A DNA stretch of 64,000 bases from Bacteriovoracaceae bacterium. GTDB lineage: Bacteria > Bdellovibrionota > Bacteriovoracia > Bacteriovoracales > Bacteriovoracaceae. Location: positions 124,001 through 188,000 of the forward strand of contig JAMPXB010000005.1 in assembly GCA_023701435.1 (NCBI GenBank), written 5' to 3'. Shown here piece after piece: positions 34,971-44,165 of this stretch. The notes under the pieces are model-generated. The model saw nothing but the letters and a program-made list of their open reading frames with translations, was not told where the DNA came from and did no database searches. The first letter of the stretch is position 1. Every line of letters starts with the position of its first letter. The translations under genes were made by a program, and so were the position numbers.

Positions 34971-35723
34971 CTAGATTTTGTCAGAAAACTTGACAACAAC
35001 CTTTTTCGTATTTACCAGGTTAATACTCGTTGGGTAGCGTTTATTCTTTCCAACGTAGCCGACGATCTTCGTGAGCTTGTTTAATTTTTCATCCCACAAA
35101 TCAGTTCCCATAAATACGCTGGTGGCTTTTCCACCGAGAGCAAAGATTATTGTTAACTCGTTGTTTTTGCTGATAATGATTTCAGAAATTTGTTTTCTCA
35201 AATCAACTTCCATTTTTTTTATGAATTGGGCCAGCTCAATAGGGGCAGCTGCTTCAAGTTGCTCCATCGAAATTGCCAGCAAGGGAAGTGGATAATTTAT
35301 TCTCTTTTCCGCCCTCATAAGATTTTCATACTGGGGCTCATACATCTTGGCATTTTCCGCTAAAATGGCCGAGTAATGTTCTTCACCATTGGCCTTATAA
35401 ACTTGAACCTTAGCCAGTGGTTCTGGGCATTCCAATTGGATGCTGAGAGTTTTAATCACTGGATTGTAGGAAATGCGGTAATCAGAGAGAAAGTACTTCT
35501 CATCCAGTTTCTCATGAAGAATTTTTTCTTTTACGCTTTTTAAGGACTTCTCTTTTTCAAATTCTTTCATCAAGAGAAGAGTCAACATACCGGATGATTT
35601 CGAAGGGCATTCTCCAAAATATGTTCGATAGTTAATATTTTTCTGAGTAAAAGACTCAGGAACATTTGCCCAAGAGGCAAAGGATGGAAGGATCAAGAAA
35701 GATACTAAAATTATTCTCAACAT
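34971..35723 (-). CDS. Divergent FtsQ/DivIB-like division protein
   Basis: 250 residues at the ftsQ position between murB and ftsA. The second half follows the FtsQ beta domain: YPLPLLAI, a helical insert, LTIIFALGGKATSVFMG, DEKLNKLTKIVGYV and a final INLVNTKKVVVKF, as in the family ending (iDLR...vvV). A POTRA-like part may lie near residues 75-115. The N-terminus (MLRIILVSFLILPSFASWA) looks like a signal peptide with no cytoplasmic tail, unlike canonical FtsQ. Assignment rests on position plus this pattern. Confidence 0.6.
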   Translation of the reverse strand: MLRIILVSFLILPSFASWANVPESFTQKNINYRTYFGECPSKSSGMLTLLLMKEFEKEKSLKSVKEKILHEKLDEKYFLSDYRISYNPVIKTLSIQLECPEPLAKVQVYKANGEEHYSAILAENAKMYEPQYENLMRAEKRINYPLPLLAISMEQLEAAAPIELAQFIKKMEVDLRKQISEIIISKNNELTIIFALGGKATSVFMGTDLWDEKLNKLTKIVGYVGKNKRYPTSINLVNTKKVVVKFSDKI

Positions 35724-37999: not shown

Positions 38000-39038
38000 G
38001 TGTTTTTATCTCTCTCAAAATATCATCACAGGTATGATTACCGGCAGATGCATTTTGCGTGTAATTTAACTCTTGGCGGAAAGCCTTGACCAGAAATTCC
38101 TGGGTCCTTTTTAAGCTTTCCTCGTGACTTAGTTTAGGCTCTACAATCTCAACTGTAAAATCAGCTTCGGCCTTAAATATTTGAGCATTATAGACCTGGT
38201 GATTATCAGTCGCTGCGGGATAAGGAAAAATCAGCACCGGCTTACGAATAATCGCCAATTCCGAAACAGTACTGGCGCCTGATCGAGCAATGATCACATC
38301 ACACCATTCATACTCTTTTTGCATGTCATCGATGTATTCCATCGGCACATAGTTAACCGATGTTTGTATTTCCGGAACCTTTTGATTTCCACCCAACTGA
38401 TGATGAATGGTCAGTGCGGGAACTTTAGGATCTTTAAGGACATCAAAAATTACCTGATTAATCTGAGAGGCTCCCAAGCTTCCACCAAATACCAACACCT
38501 TTAATTCGCCATCAAAACTTTTTGCAGGTACTGGCTGGATTGATTTCCGGGTGGGATTTCCCACCACTCTGACTTTCTTGGCCAGACTCTTGGACAGCCC
38601 TCGGGTTTCAGTAAAATGAACGAATATACGGGATGAAATCCAGCCCAGAATCCGATTAGTCAGTCCCATCACGGCGTTTTGTTCAATAATAAAGACCGGT
38701 ATTAAGAGTAAGTATCCCGCCAGTAAAGTCGGCCCGCAAACATAGCCCCCGGCCCCTACGATAAAGTTCGGTCGCTCTTTTATAAAGGCTATAAAGATGG
38801 ATAAAAAACTCATCAAGTTCAAAAGAACATTGCTGATGAATTGCAGGGGATTTTTAGTCCGCAGGGGTTTTGAATCCAGATGACGGACTTTCTGATTTTT
38901 AAAAAGTTTGTAATCTAAAGGACGTTTACCTGTCAGATAGTGAATATCCCATCCTTCCTGAGCAAAAGCTTCTCCAACTGCTAAGGCCGCATTGATATGC
39001 CCACCGGTTCCTCCGGCTACCAAGATTGCACGTTTCAT
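37983..39038 (-). CDS. murG: Lipid II synthase (GlcNAc transferase) MurG
   Basis: 351 residues, GT28 family. N-terminal VAGGTGGHINAALAVGEAF, FIVGAGGYVCGPTLLAGYL, IEQNAVMGLTNR, VFGGSLGASQINQ and C-terminal CDVIIARSGASTVSELAI are all present. It is a peripheral inner-membrane enzyme that adds GlcNAc to lipid I. It shares one base with ftsW. Confidence 0.97.
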   Translation of the reverse strand: MKRAILVAGGTGGHINAALAVGEAFAQEGWDIHYLTGKRPLDYKLFKNQKVRHLDSKPLRTKNPLQFISNVLLNLMSFLSIFIAFIKERPNFIVGAGGYVCGPTLLAGYLLLIPVFIIEQNAVMGLTNRILGWISSRIFVHFTETRGLSKSLAKKVRVVGNPTRKSIQPVPAKSFDGELKVLVFGGSLGASQINQVIFDVLKDPKVPALTIHHQLGGNQKVPEIQTSVNYVPMEYIDDMQKEYEWCDVIIARSGASTVSELAIIRKPVLIFPYPAATDNHQVYNAQIFKAEADFTVEIVEPKLSHEESLKRTQEFLVKAFRQELNYTQNASAGNHTCDDILREIKTHVGMA

Positions 39039-40201
39039 TAATTAAACACACTTTTAAGAGCTGCTACTGGTGACTGCTTGCCCTTGCTTTTTACTTCTTT
39101 AGCGTCACCAGGTTGAATACGTATGCAAGCAAAGACCAGTCCTAGTGCCGCCAGATTGGCCACCATGGATGATCCCCCATAACTAATGAAAGGCAGGTTT
39201 AAACCCTTGGTTGGCAGAACCCCCAACACCACTCCCATATTCATGAAAGCTTGAAAACCAATTGAGAAAATAATGGTGGCCACCATAATGCTGCCCACTC
39301 GCGACTTAAGAGATATGGCCATCTTAAAACCGATGAAAATAAAACTAACAAACATCACAGCGGTGACGAACACTCCTATGAAACCCAATTCTTCACCGAC
39401 CACGGAAAAAATGAAATCGTTATAAGCTTCCGGCAAATAGAATAACTTTTCATTACTATTTCCCAAACCCTGTCCAAAGAATGAGCCATTGGCGAAGGCT
39501 AAAAAAGATTGAATCACCTGAAAACCACTGCCACGAGGATCCTTCCAAGGATCAAGGAAAGTGAGCAGTCGTTTCACTCGATAAGGAGCGGAAATCAGGA
39601 TTCCAAAAGCACCAATCATTCCCATAACTAACACTGAGTAAAAATACTTTCGCGGAAATGAACTCAAAAAGGCAATGAAGCCAATAATAAGGGAGGCAAT
39701 AAAGAAAGTTCCGAAATCGGGCTGAAGAACAAAAACCGCTAAGGGATACACAAGACCAGAAAGGTATACCAACCGCTGCTTGGGAGTGTAATGGTTGAAA
39801 TTTTCAAAATAGCGGATAGCTGCCAACATCAAAGTATATTTTAAAAACTCCCCTGGCTGCAGATTCATAAAGCCCAGATTTAACCAGCGCTTGGAACCTT
39901 TGATCACAACACTTAATCCAGGAACCAGGGTGAGTGTTAACAAAAGCCCGAAGAAGGCATTTACTTTGTAAGCATGCTTATAAAGATAGAGGATTTTAAA
40001 CTTGGAGAAAATCAAAGCGATGGTTAATCCGAGAGCGATGAACACTAACTGTTTGATCAAAAAGAAATAGCTACTTCCCATGTTTTCAGTGGCGTACATG
40101 TAGCTGGCGGAAAACACCATGATGACGCCAAATAGTATTAAAAAGAAGACATTAATCAGGAAGTAATTAGTTAACTTTTCTAGTCTGTTATTTTCATTCA
40201 T
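39038..40201 (-). CDS. ftsW: SEDS glycosyltransferase FtsW
   Basis: 387 residues with about ten membrane helices. Family blocks are VVIKGSKRWLNLGFMNLQPGEFLKY, LQPDFGTFFI, GFQVIQSFLAFANGSFFGQGLGNS, EAYNDFIFSVVGEELGFIG and NLPFISYGGSS near the end. It polymerises septal glycan with FtsI. Two hairpins fill the gap before its ATG, and no good ribosome site is exposed (only GGTG inside a stem). Confidence 0.96.
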   Translation of the reverse strand: MNENNRLEKLTNYFLINVFFLILFGVIMVFSASYMYATENMGSSYFFLIKQLVFIALGLTIALIFSKFKILYLYKHAYKVNAFFGLLLTLTLVPGLSVVIKGSKRWLNLGFMNLQPGEFLKYTLMLAAIRYFENFNHYTPKQRLVYLSGLVYPLAVFVLQPDFGTFFIASLIIGFIAFLSSFPRKYFYSVLVMGMIGAFGILISAPYRVKRLLTFLDPWKDPRGSGFQVIQSFLAFANGSFFGQGLGNSNEKLFYLPEAYNDFIFSVVGEELGFIGVFVTAVMFVSFIFIGFKMAISLKSRVGSIMVATIIFSIGFQAFMNMGVVLGVLPTKGLNLPFISYGGSSMVANLAALGLVFACIRIQPGDAKEVKSKGKQSPVAALKSVFN

Positions 40202-40266: not shown

Positions 40267-41649
40267 TTAGAGTTGGAAGATGAGTTTCTTGTAGTAGTTA
40301 CCTTTTTCTTCAAAATCACGGAACACATCAGTGCTCTCGTTACCCGGACAAAGGAGAATCGTATCTCCAGTACGGGATTTTTGATAGGCCAACAGAACAG
40401 ATTCATCAAATGAACCTACCAGATAAGTTTGAGTCACATCTCCAAGAATACGGTTCATACTCTCTTTAACTTCCCCAACCAGTACTAGAACGCGCACTTT
40501 CTCATGAATAATATTGGCGTACTTATCAAAAGGAATACCTTCAATTTCTTTACCACCGGCAATTAAAATGACGGGATCTTTGAAAGCTTCCAATGAAACT
40601 TTAAGTTCATCCATGGTCTCAGACTTTGAGTCGTTATAAAAACGGACACCGTTCTTTTCAACCACGAACTCCAGGCGGTGAGGGATACCAGGGAATTTCT
40701 CAATACAGTGTTGGATAGCGTGATCAGAAACTTTAAGCGCTTTACAAGCAGTAATTGAAGCCATCAAGTTTTCACGGTTATTTACACCCACAATTCTCAT
40801 ATCTGTAACTTTGAACTCAGAATGAAAATGAATATTGGAATGAATACGTTTGTCATGGAAATGGGTCCCTTGAATTTCAGAGATCACACCCATGGTTACA
40901 AATGACTTTCTTGAATACCAGAAAGTCTGTGCTTTAGAACTTCTAAGAACAGAGTTAGAAGCCAGTTTATCAAAATTAACAACCAGATAGTCCTCAGGAC
41001 CCAAATTACGGGCGACCTTCAAGGCGGTATCCAGATACTCCGCAGATGTTTTGAAACGACCCAATAAGTTCTTCTCTTCCAGGTTTGGATAGACGGCCAG
41101 CAACGGCTTGAAATTATCTACCGTTTGAAGCTGTTGAGGAGAAACCTCGATTACGCAGTAATCAATTTCTTCATTATTTGGAAGAGAAAGAAAGTTAATG
41201 AATGGCTCTTCTGATGTGCCACCGATGAAAACATTCTTCTTATCAATTTTAAGGGTATAGCCGATCATGTGAGCGGTAATAGTGCGACCATGGCTGCCAC
41301 ATACAGCAACAATGGGCTTAGTACAATTTTCATAAGCAAAGGCAAAGTCTGAATAAACAGCACGACCGTGCTCTCTGGCCACCTTCAACTGAGGAAGATT
41401 AGGATCAACAGAGGAAGAATAAACAATGATGTCGGCTTCAATGAAGTCTTCATCCTTGTGCTCTCCGAGAGTCATCGTCGGAGTTGGGTTGATCTTCTTC
41501 AATCTCTTCACTTGTTTATTCAAGTCAAAGATCGGCTTAATATCTGTTACTTTGATATCACAGCCCCATTGAGTGAAGAGGTTAACCAAAGCAAAACCAG
41601 TTTTACCGAGGCCAACAACCAGGACTTTCTTCCCTTTATATTTTTCCAT
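40267..41649 (-). CDS. murD: MurD-type ligase with degenerate catalytic motifs
   Basis: 460 residues in the murD slot between mraY and ftsW. The overall fold is MurD: an initial VLVVGLGKTGFALVN, HRLEFVVEKNGVRFYNDSKS, ILIAGGKEIEG and DVFRDFEEKGNYY. The central ATPase deviates strongly. The P-loop is CGSHGRTIT with Arg122 (codon CGC at 41286-41284) for the essential Lys, EVSPQQL replaces ESSFQL, and PNLEEKNLLGRF replaces NxxxDHLDRH. The carbamylated-Lys position reads Ala near 209, and CPGNESTDVF replaces SPACASFDMF. It may be inactive or repurposed, with the working MurD elsewhere. Confidence 0.8.
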   Translation of the reverse strand: MEKYKGKKVLVVGLGKTGFALVNLFTQWGCDIKVTDIKPIFDLNKQVKRLKKINPTPTMTLGEHKDEDFIEADIIVYSSSVDPNLPQLKVAREHGRAVYSDFAFAYENCTKPIVAVCGSHGRTITAHMIGYTLKIDKKNVFIGGTSEEPFINFLSLPNNEEIDYCVIEVSPQQLQTVDNFKPLLAVYPNLEEKNLLGRFKTSAEYLDTALKVARNLGPEDYLVVNFDKLASNSVLRSSKAQTFWYSRKSFVTMGVISEIQGTHFHDKRIHSNIHFHSEFKVTDMRIVGVNNRENLMASITACKALKVSDHAIQHCIEKFPGIPHRLEFVVEKNGVRFYNDSKSETMDELKVSLEAFKDPVILIAGGKEIEGIPFDKYANIIHEKVRVLVLVGEVKESMNRILGDVTQTYLVGSFDESVLLAYQKSRTGDTILLCPGNESTDVFRDFEEKGNYYKKLIFQL

Positions 41650-41665: not shown

Positions 41666-42742
41666 TTATCTAAGTTTAAGAGTCGCAAGAGCAAGAATCG
41701 CAAAAACCAGACTTATGATCCAGAATCTGACGATTACTTTCGTTTCAGGCCAGCCCATCAACTCAAAATGATGATGAATAGGAGCCATTTTAAAAATTCT
41801 CTTTCCTCTGGTTTTAAAAGAAGCAACCTGCAGGATTACTGAAACAGCTTCAATAACAAAAATCCCCCCGATAAGAACAAAGAGGAATTCATTTTTAGTT
41901 AAAACAGCAATTGTACCAAGGCATCCGCCCAAAGAAAGAGATCCAACATCACCCATGAAAATTTCAGCAGGGTAAGCATTATACCACAAGAAGCCCACGC
42001 CAGCGCCAATAATGGCTGAAACCAAAACCAGTAACTCACCAACATCAGGCACATGAGGAATCAACAAATAATTAGCTAACTCAGAGTGACCGGCCAGATA
42101 GGCCAAGAAACCCAGGGTAGCAGCTGAGATAATTGTAGGGCCAATCGCCAAACCATCCAAACCGTCAGTCAAATTTAGTGCATTAGAAGAACCGACGATG
42201 ACAAAAGCCGCAAATGGCACATAGAACCAGCCGATATCCAACACGGGATCTTTAACAAATGGGATATAAATTTGTGAATCTGTAATTCCCCAACGAATCA
42301 TTACGTAGCTTGCCACTAATGCTGTAGAGAACTGCCACACCAGCTTTTGTCTGGCACTGACACCTTTGGTATTTTTCTTCAGGACCTTTAAATAATCATC
42401 CAATCCGCCCAGGAAGAAATAGGAGATAGTCACAAACAAGGCGATGAGAAACGGAAATGAAACAAAGTTACCGCAAATAGCACAGGCGAATACGGCGCTA
42501 CCCAAAATAAAAACCCCACCAAAGGTAGGAGTTCCTTTTTTCTTCTTATGACTTTCGGGCCCTTCTTCACGTATGGTCTGGCCAAATTGTCTTAACTTCA
42601 TCAGAGCTATAAAGCGCTTGCCCCAAATAATGGAAACCAAGGTCGCTATTATGAACGCCAAAAATGAGCGAAAAGTAATATATTTGAAGACATTGAAAAG
42701 CTGAAAGTCCTGACTTAGCGGGTAAAGCCAATGATAGAGCAT
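41666..42742 (-). CDS. mraY: Phospho-MurNAc-pentapeptide transferase
   Basis: 358 residues with ten membrane helices. Catalytic blocks are GGLDDYLKVLKKNTKGVSARQK, NALNLTDGLDGLAIGP and EIFMGDVGSLSLGG, then IHHHFELMGWPETK. It makes lipid I at the inner membrane. Its ribosome site (AAAGGGA) lies inside an inverted repeat that fills the murF-mraY gap. Confidence 0.97.
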   Translation of the reverse strand: MLYHWLYPLSQDFQLFNVFKYITFRSFLAFIIATLVSIIWGKRFIALMKLRQFGQTIREEGPESHKKKKGTPTFGGVFILGSAVFACAICGNFVSFPFLIALFVTISYFFLGGLDDYLKVLKKNTKGVSARQKLVWQFSTALVASYVMIRWGITDSQIYIPFVKDPVLDIGWFYVPFAAFVIVGSSNALNLTDGLDGLAIGPTIISAATLGFLAYLAGHSELANYLLIPHVPDVGELLVLVSAIIGAGVGFLWYNAYPAEIFMGDVGSLSLGGCLGTIAVLTKNEFLFVLIGGIFVIEAVSVILQVASFKTRGKRIFKMAPIHHHFELMGWPETKVIVRFWIISLVFAILALATLKLR

Positions 42743-42767: not shown

Positions 42768-44165
42768 TTAAGTTATATCGAACAAAGACTCCAATTGTAA
42801 AGAGCGCGACCCCTTTATAAAGTGAATAGGATATTTCTTTAAACATTGCCCTCTGTACTCACTCTTAAAATCAGCACTGGTGGCCTTAGGATGACCTTCA
42901 GGATATCCGCTTAAATAATGATGTGAGAAGCGACCTACAAAATACACATTCGGGAAGCCTAATTCTTTCACATATTGACCAACCTCTACATGATACTGGG
43001 GAGTTGAATCACCCAGCTCATTCATGTCCCCTAGCACAATACATGCTTCACTTAGCTTGAATCCTTGCTCCAAAAGACTTTCTTTAAAGCCTTGTAAGGC
43101 AGCTTTCATGGAAGAAGGATTGGCATTATAGGCATCAAGGTAAACTGAACGATCCTCAAACTGAATCCATTCTGAACGATTTTTCGTCGGACGAAAGTTT
43201 TTACACGCCTCAATAAAAAGATGGCGATGTTCAGGATAGAAGTGAGTCGCAATGAACAAGCAGGTAATAAGATTGAGCTTGTTGTGGCGGCCAGTAATAT
43301 GCTGGTTTACGGCCAGCAGATTCTGTCCCTTAAAATGGATCTCTGCTCCGTCCTCAACATACTTAATATGGGCCATCGCTGATGGTGCTTCACCGTAAGT
43401 AATCGAGCCTGCCGTCGGGGCAAGATTCTTTAAGAACTTATCGTCGACATTGATAAGATAGAATCCCTTACCAGAGGTGACTTCTTTAACTGCATGATAA
43501 AGGTAGCCTTCTTCTTCAAATACTTTTTCTTCATCACCAAAAAATTCCAAATGGGTGGCACCAATATTAGTGGTGAGTCCAGCATTGGGACTGGCAATAT
43601 CACAAAGAACTTTGATTTCACCTGGATGATTACTGCCTAATTCCAGCACTACAATTTCTGTGTGCTCACTGACTGTTAATAAAGTAAGCGGTACACCCAG
43701 GTGATTATTGTTATTTTTCTCGGTAGCAATGACCTTACCCGGTAGCACTTCTCTTAGGATAAAAGACAGCATCTCTTTGTGGGTGGTTTTACCATTAGAA
43801 CCGGAAATGGCAAAAATTGTATTTCTAGGATTCTTGCTTTTCCATTCCTTGATGTGCTGGTGAGACAGTTCTTGAAGGAAGGTAATACTGTCTGAAACAG
43901 GAACAAATTCAGTCTTGGGAAAGCGGGTCTTAAGTGAAGTTACTTTCTCATTATTGATTTCATCTTGTTGAAAAAAGACCAGCGGACATCCAGCGGATAA
44001 TAATTCCGATATCACATCCAAAGGATTAACCTTCGCGCCAGGAATAGCAACAAAAGCTGAGGGATGATGATATCTTCTGGTGTCTGTGCAAAAATTCAAG
44101 TGGCCAGTCTGCTCGACAGGTTTCTTTATAGAGGGGCACTTACTGAGAAGTGATAGGTTAATCAT
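42768..44165 (-). CDS. murF: UDP-MurNAc-tripeptide-D-Ala-D-Ala ligase
   Basis: 465 residues. The P-loop GSNGKTTHKEM is intact near residue 122. NNNNHLGVPLTLL, LELGSNHPGEI and GATHLEFFG follow, and the C-terminal domain has YNANPSSMKAAL and VLGDMNELGD. After HLEFFG the family has a carbamylated Lys (AKxE); here the aligned residue is Glu219 (VFEEEGYL). It adds D-Ala-D-Ala to the UDP-MurNAc-tripeptide. The start overlaps the murE stop (ATGA). Confidence 0.92.
   Translation of the reverse strand: MINLSLLSKCPSIKKPVEQTGHLNFCTDTRRYHHPSAFVAIPGAKVNPLDVISELLSAGCPLVFFQQDEINNEKVTSLKTRFPKTEFVPVSDSITFLQELSHQHIKEWKSKNPRNTIFAISGSNGKTTHKEMLSFILREVLPGKVIATEKNNNNHLGVPLTLLTVSEHTEIVVLELGSNHPGEIKVLCDIASPNAGLTTNIGATHLEFFGDEEKVFEEEGYLYHAVKEVTSGKGFYLINVDDKFLKNLAPTAGSITYGEAPSAMAHIKYVEDGAEIHFKGQNLLAVNQHITGRHNKLNLITCLFIATHFYPEHRHLFIEACKNFRPTKNRSEWIQFEDRSVYLDAYNANPSSMKAALQGFKESLLEQGFKLSEACIVLGDMNELGDSTPQYHVEVGQYVKELGFPNVYFVGRFSHHYLSGYPEGHPKATSADFKSEYRGQCLKKYPIHFIKGSRSLQLESLFDIT

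Follow-up and report, generated by a model that had tools for sequence, protein, structure and literature searches.

The window, a stretch of 64,000 nucleotides from a Bacteriovoracaceae bacterium (assembly GCA_023701435.1, contig JAMPXB010000005.1, positions 124,001 to 188,000), carries a division and cell wall (dcw) cluster with a MurD-like gene between mraY and ftsW (Table 1). The family is known for predators. An earlier reading of this DNA, referred to here as the original prediction, described a MurD with an intact frame that has lost most of its catalytic residues. We find the open reading frame (ORF) uninterrupted over its full 460 amino acids, and the protein is predicted to adopt the MurD fold with its three domains. 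With 258.4 bits it passes the curated TIGR01087 cut-off of 211.95. Still, several residues on which MurD catalysis depends are replaced, and the replacements are largely shared across the family.

Catalytic positions (K115, N138, E157, H183, K198, N271, H301, R302, D317, K319 and T321) are given in E. coli MurD numbering, and counts refer to 97 distinct Bacteriovoracaceae dcw sequences, which stem from part of the 120 genomes with a dcw copy and in which some organisms are represented by both a named and an unnamed locus. An earlier alignment set omitted seven matches, namely six second loci of included genomes and L123 (G004), which is a distinct sequence and is counted among the 97. Four named loci missed by a simple ORF filter (L230, L233, L235, L254) lie outside this set; they belong to the 80 named loci, all of which (80/80) carry the GR motif. 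As predicted, the P-loop of the window protein reads GSHGRT, with Arg122 (CGC at 41284-41286) in the place of K115, the P-loop lysine of E. coli MurD. The arginine is invariant in the 97 sequences together with Cys117 and Gly121. This Lys-to-Arg column is the same whether the protein is aligned to E. coli MurD with MAFFT or, separately, to MurDs of solved structure by a HMMER profile. The replacement of the canonical motifs by NLEEKNLLGRF and SPQQL was likewise confirmed. H183, which like E157 binds Mg in MurD, is lost in 97/97 sequences, where nine different residues occur instead of histidine; the neighboring column 182 holds Lys in the window protein. The SSFQL region reads EVSPQQL, and positions N120, S171 and F172 vary across dcw copies. 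In the D-Glu site, which comprises T321, K348, S415, L416 and F422 (K348 and L416 also according to PMC8788868), T321 is mostly replaced by Glu, column 415 is Ser in 40/63, column 422 is Phe or Tyr in 63/63 and the K348 loop aligns poorly. The alanine predicted near residue 209 for the carbamylated lysine K198 is present in the window protein but does not hold for the family: since lysine is found there in more than half of the sequences, this point is valid for some genera only. In E. coli MurD, K198 mutants are reported to have much lower activity (PMC4816537). Because both the P-loop lysine and the Mg-binding histidine are gone, the dcw copy is most likely unable to form the acyl-phosphate or to ligate D-glutamate. 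The P-loops of the neighboring MurC (GSHGKT), MurF (GSNGKT) and MurE (GTNGKT) are canonical, in line with the original prediction.

Table 1. Features of the MurD-like gene and its neighbors (positions in the window; residues of the window protein; counts among 97 dcw sequences)
Feature	Position	Strand	Remarks
Putative MurD-like pseudoenzyme gene	40267..41649	-	460 aa; dcw cluster, flanked by mraY and ftsW
Degenerate P-loop GSHGRT, residues 118-123	41281..41298	-	R122 replaces K115; Arg in 97/97
T145 replacing N138	41215..41217	-	Thr in 94/97
SPQQL, residues 170-174, replacing SSFQL	41128..41142	-	Preceding Glu E168 (= E157) retained
NLEEKNLLGRF, residues 189-199	41053..41085	-	DH metal motif gone
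A209 at the carbamylated Lys198 position	41023..41025	-	Ala 31/97, Lys 53/97
Family-specific segment, residues 244-281	40807..40920	-	W244, Y245, R247, H263, H265, R268, H270, H276
HR...DSK region, residues 324-342, largely retained	40624..40680	-	H301, R302, D317, K319 equivalents
E344 replacing T321	40618..40620	-	Glu in 89/97
mraY	41666..42742	-	Directly upstream of the MurD-like gene
ftsW	39038..40201	-	Directly downstream of the MurD-like gene

A second MurD with intact P-loop and metal histidine, which the original prediction had called for, is present elsewhere in the genome. Six Mur-ligase matches were found in total: MurC, MurE, MurF and the MurD-like protein of the dcw cluster, a gene nearest to Mpl that falls below the Mpl cut-off, and a second MurD (L004, G000:C31:131998-133326). 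The latter scores 332 bits with TIGR01087 versus 258.4 for the dcw copy and carries GTNGKT, EVSSFQL, NHSERY and the K198 equivalent; in NHSERY, Asp182 is exchanged for Asn and the metal His is retained. K115, H183 and K198 are found in 48/48 second copies of more than 400 amino acids, a set from which the shorter partial copies L061 and L066 were excluded. From these intact motifs we infer that the second MurD performs D-Glu ligation. It was detected at E <= 1e-55 in 68 of 73 high-quality family genomes (at least 90% complete, at most 5% contaminated), in some of them fragmented (e.g. G091), and G034 and G075 gave partial matches. The 68 were counted as 72 of 234 minus four belonging to other families.

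The dcw copy itself is nearly universal in the class as sampled, which consists of one family with 129 genomes: it is present in 120 of these at E <= 1e-46 and in all 73 of high quality. The nearest named contigs are 97% identical. Gene order was read at 114 loci (80 named and 34 unnamed, overlapping in organisms), the named ones including many Bacteriovoracaceae, Bacteriovorax and Halobacteriovorax besides others with broader or different names. All 114 loci have mraY upstream in the same orientation, and 109/114 have ftsW downstream; the exceptions are two loci with no room for it, two others (L217 and L086) where it was not found, and L109, where it is on the opposite strand. By contrast, murG has moved out of its dcw place in 7/10 family genomes examined; it is absent from the ftsW-murC interval of the dcw cluster in L122 (G043) and L123 (G004). 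The murB/ftsA interval of the window contains a 250-aa ORF (34971-35723) at the expected place of ftsQ, for which a Pfam search up to E 0.01 gave no match.

Conservation of the dcw copy exceeds that of the second MurD in 253/253 pairs of 23 genomes (mean identity 0.67 versus 0.37). Between the window and G043 it is 64% identical, compared to 70% for MraY, 68% for FtsA and 60% for FtsZ, while FtsW (54%), FtsI (53%), MurC (52%), MurE (39%) and MurF (35%) are all lower. MurF (window 42768-44165) is thus among the least conserved dcw proteins, and it scores under the TIGR01143 cut-off (257 versus 289 bits). Between the window and G086, the nonsynonymous divergence (dN) of the dcw copy is 0.028, at the level of MraY and FtsA, and that of the second MurD 0.120. 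Synonymous divergence (dS) is saturated (proportion of synonymous differences, pS, 0.61-0.86) and therefore dN and identity were used rather than dN/dS ratios. Catalytic residues are lost and the protein is conserved, the combination by which we call it a putative pseudoenzyme.

Part of this conservation falls into a segment specific to the family, residues 244-281, in which H263, H265 and R268 occur in 97/97 sequences, H276 in 95/97 and H270 in 92/97. The model contains short strands at 261-265, 268-271 and 277-280. In a comparison with 39 MurDs of sister families, after five with altered motifs had been set aside, mostly different residues were found across the segment, with His at H270 in six. 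Ten columns are fixed differently in Bacteriovoracaceae and sisters, including T117C, K122R, T344E and V346M. In 38 columns the family is conserved and the sisters vary; 14 of these lie within residues 241-300. A role of the His/Arg segment as a metal or ligand site is conjectural.

In a tree built without the catalytic columns, the dcw copies of the family group together as a clade (100/100), with a long stem (1.09), within the dcw-type MurDs of the phylum (99/98). A different clade (100/99) holds the second copies of the family, and a further one (100/100) those of families f3, f20 and f21. Although the tree separates the two copies of Bacteriovoracaceae (f1), an approximately unbiased (AU) test did not reject a single clade of both (p 0.073), and duplication within the family may be the source of the second MurD. 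Sister-family MurDs were called dcw-type by similarity and tree, with gene place read for G138 and G319. Two MurDs are found in f1, f2, f3, f20, f21, f25 and f29; the single genomes G223 and G329 also counted two. Catalytic residues of the dcw-type protein are gone in f1 and in two genomes of f20, one of f21 and four of f29, and its decay is partial in one genome of f2 (K198Q) and one of f25 (altered SSFQ), whereas MurD is intact in the 21 families with one MurD (including f28; one to seven rows each, f17 lying outside the sample). Decay thus affects 4/7 two-MurD versus 0/21 one-MurD families (Fisher p 0.0017), or 6/7 versus 0/21 with the partial cases (p 2e-5), in tests made after the data had been seen and on families that are not independent. 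One origin of the decay in f1, f20, f21 and f29 was not rejected (p 0.37), whereas a single origin of all decayed dcw-type MurDs was rejected once f25 and f2 were added (p 4e-8). Since the fewest changes are two (strict) or four (lenient), we do not claim many independent full losses. Like the Bacteriovoracaceae protein, the dcw-type MurDs of f20, f21 and f29 have lost catalytic residues in the presence of a second MurD; unlike it, they keep the P-loop Lys and have lost other residues (H183, K198, E157 or K319), and the f20 and f29 rows compared are without the His/Arg segment. In G174 (f3; single contig, 99% complete) TIGR01087 has a single match at E <= 1e-30, to a MurD of the second type, and a dcw-type MurD was not found at E <= 1e-40. 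The MurD matches of G359-G362 (f28) are short and divergent, and a quick tree places them close to other families' second copies.

Given these patterns, the dcw protein is probably a pseudoenzyme with a full-length MurD fold that has been kept for another role near mraY and ftsW, with the second MurD carrying out catalysis. The second MurD would have released the dcw copy from catalysis, and what keeps the dcw copy would be a function linked to its position next to MraY and FtsW. Most likely, it would serve as a subunit, structural and/or ligand-sensing, by which soluble Mur enzymes are docked to the membrane steps of MraY and FtsW; the family-specific His/Arg segment and a conserved N-terminal block would be its contact surfaces. 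We infer a scaffold rather than a sensor, and likewise the choice of partner and any binding of nucleotide or UDP-sugar. A more tentative, and in our estimate rather doubtful, extension is that the change from enzyme to adaptor or sensor occurred at the root of Bacteriovoracaceae, where a His/Arg surface would have arisen that couples Mur enzymes to MraY and FtsW and might bind a metal or ligand, and that dcw-type MurDs elsewhere in the phylum drift likewise where a second MurD frees them.

Several observations weigh against a pseudoenzyme. Retained are E157 (96/97), S/T116 (97/97), N271 (96/97), R302 (95/97), D317 (96/97) and K319 (96/97), the last three of which belong to the ATP site; ATP might therefore still bind. 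H301 is also kept in 82/97. Hence the original claim that most catalytic residues are lost was right for K115 and H183 but too strong overall. In addition, a second MurD was not found in 3/73 high-quality family genomes (G011, G064, G077; assemblies of about 300, 220 and 310 contigs), and should these genomes truly lack it, the reaction would fall to the dcw copy. f3, probably Bdellovibrionaceae, keeps its dcw-type MurD intact (six rows) despite two copies; decay is thus not a necessary outcome of having a second MurD. Finally, no computed result singles out any partner protein.

The original prediction had offered inactivity, regulation or changed chemistry, and the conservation pattern favors the first two. 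An allosteric regulator, not a scaffold, that senses nucleotide, UDP-MurNAc-Ala or metal and acts as a switch on the canonical MurD or on some other Mur enzyme is an unlikely alternative: the conserved His cluster would suit it, as would the retention of D35 (97/97), N268 (94/97), N271 and R302, residues of the UDP and adenine sites of MurD. However, with N138 and H183 lost and T321 mostly Glu, classical substrate binding should be impaired. Less probable still is an ATP-dependent ligase or phosphotransferase acting via Arg122 and Glu157 on another substrate. Its active site could account for the invariant Arg122, Cys117 and Gly121 and for the nearly invariant E157 and K319, but hardly for a metal histidine replaced by nine different residues, a K198 position that is often not Lys and variable N120, S171 and F172 positions.

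It is very improbable that the dcw copy is still the working MurD, with an unorthodox mechanism, and that the second copy corresponds to the L-Glu ligase MurD2 of Xanthomonas. The three high-quality genomes without a detected second copy would fit the former, but K115 and H183 are gone. As for the latter, three of the four MurD2 changes given in PMC8788868 recur in the second copies: the K348 column is Arg in 48/48 (in a loop that aligns less surely), A414 is Pro in 47/48 and L416 is Phe in 46/48. The fourth, D182E, is not shared (Asn in 35/48). According to the same paper, the MurD of S. mutans carries the same Arg. Moreover, a glutamate racemase (TIGR00067) match, at odds with an L-Glu ligase, is found in 10/12 family genomes, including that of the window, with one of the ten matches lying just under the cut-off; none was found in G063 and G021 of these twelve, nor in the sister-family genomes G319 and G303. 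The lost catalytic residues would also fit a sequencing error or a non-functional relic on its way to being deleted, readings to which we give almost no credence: the protein is present in 73/73 high-quality genomes and surpasses the second copy in conservation in every pair. An error at 41284-41286 or a local pseudogene is ruled out by Arg in 97/97, His in 0/97 at H183 and the low dN.

Compared to canonical MurD, the dcw copy shares predicted fold, length, three domains, the mraY-ftsW position known from E. coli and a score above the family cut-off, but differs in the P-loop Lys-to-Arg exchange, the lost Mg His, N138T, T321E and the conserved segment 244-281. Xanthomonas MurD2, an L-Glu ligase acting with MurL, is also a MurD-family protein with altered active-site residues; it is, however, an active ligase, and its active-site marks Glu182 and Arg348 do not describe the dcw copy of the window, in which K115 and H183 are missing and position 182 is Lys. 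A Mur ligase homolog as a subunit of a larger complex has a parallel in the plant MurE-like PAP11 of the plastid RNA polymerase (PMC9456514), although PAP11 resembles MurE rather than MurD and belongs to a chloroplast transcription complex. The T. maritima MurD binds both MurG and MreB (PMC6420597), and MurD, MurE and MurF are reported not to bind one another in the absence of MreB or MurG (PMC4929429). Among the matches listed from the open-licence literature, no title or abstract opening described an inactive bacterial MurD.

Annotation by family score would label a probably inactive protein as a MurD enzyme, as the dcw copy passes the MurD equivalog cut-off. In Bacteriovoracaceae, the murD at the usual site has seemingly lost key catalytic residues while being conserved as tightly as core division proteins, which suggests a non-catalytic job. 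Since Mur ligases are essential, it is difficult to test whether they have structural roles besides catalysis; in this family, the reaction and the needs of the dcw position seem to have been split by evolution between two genes, one for each.
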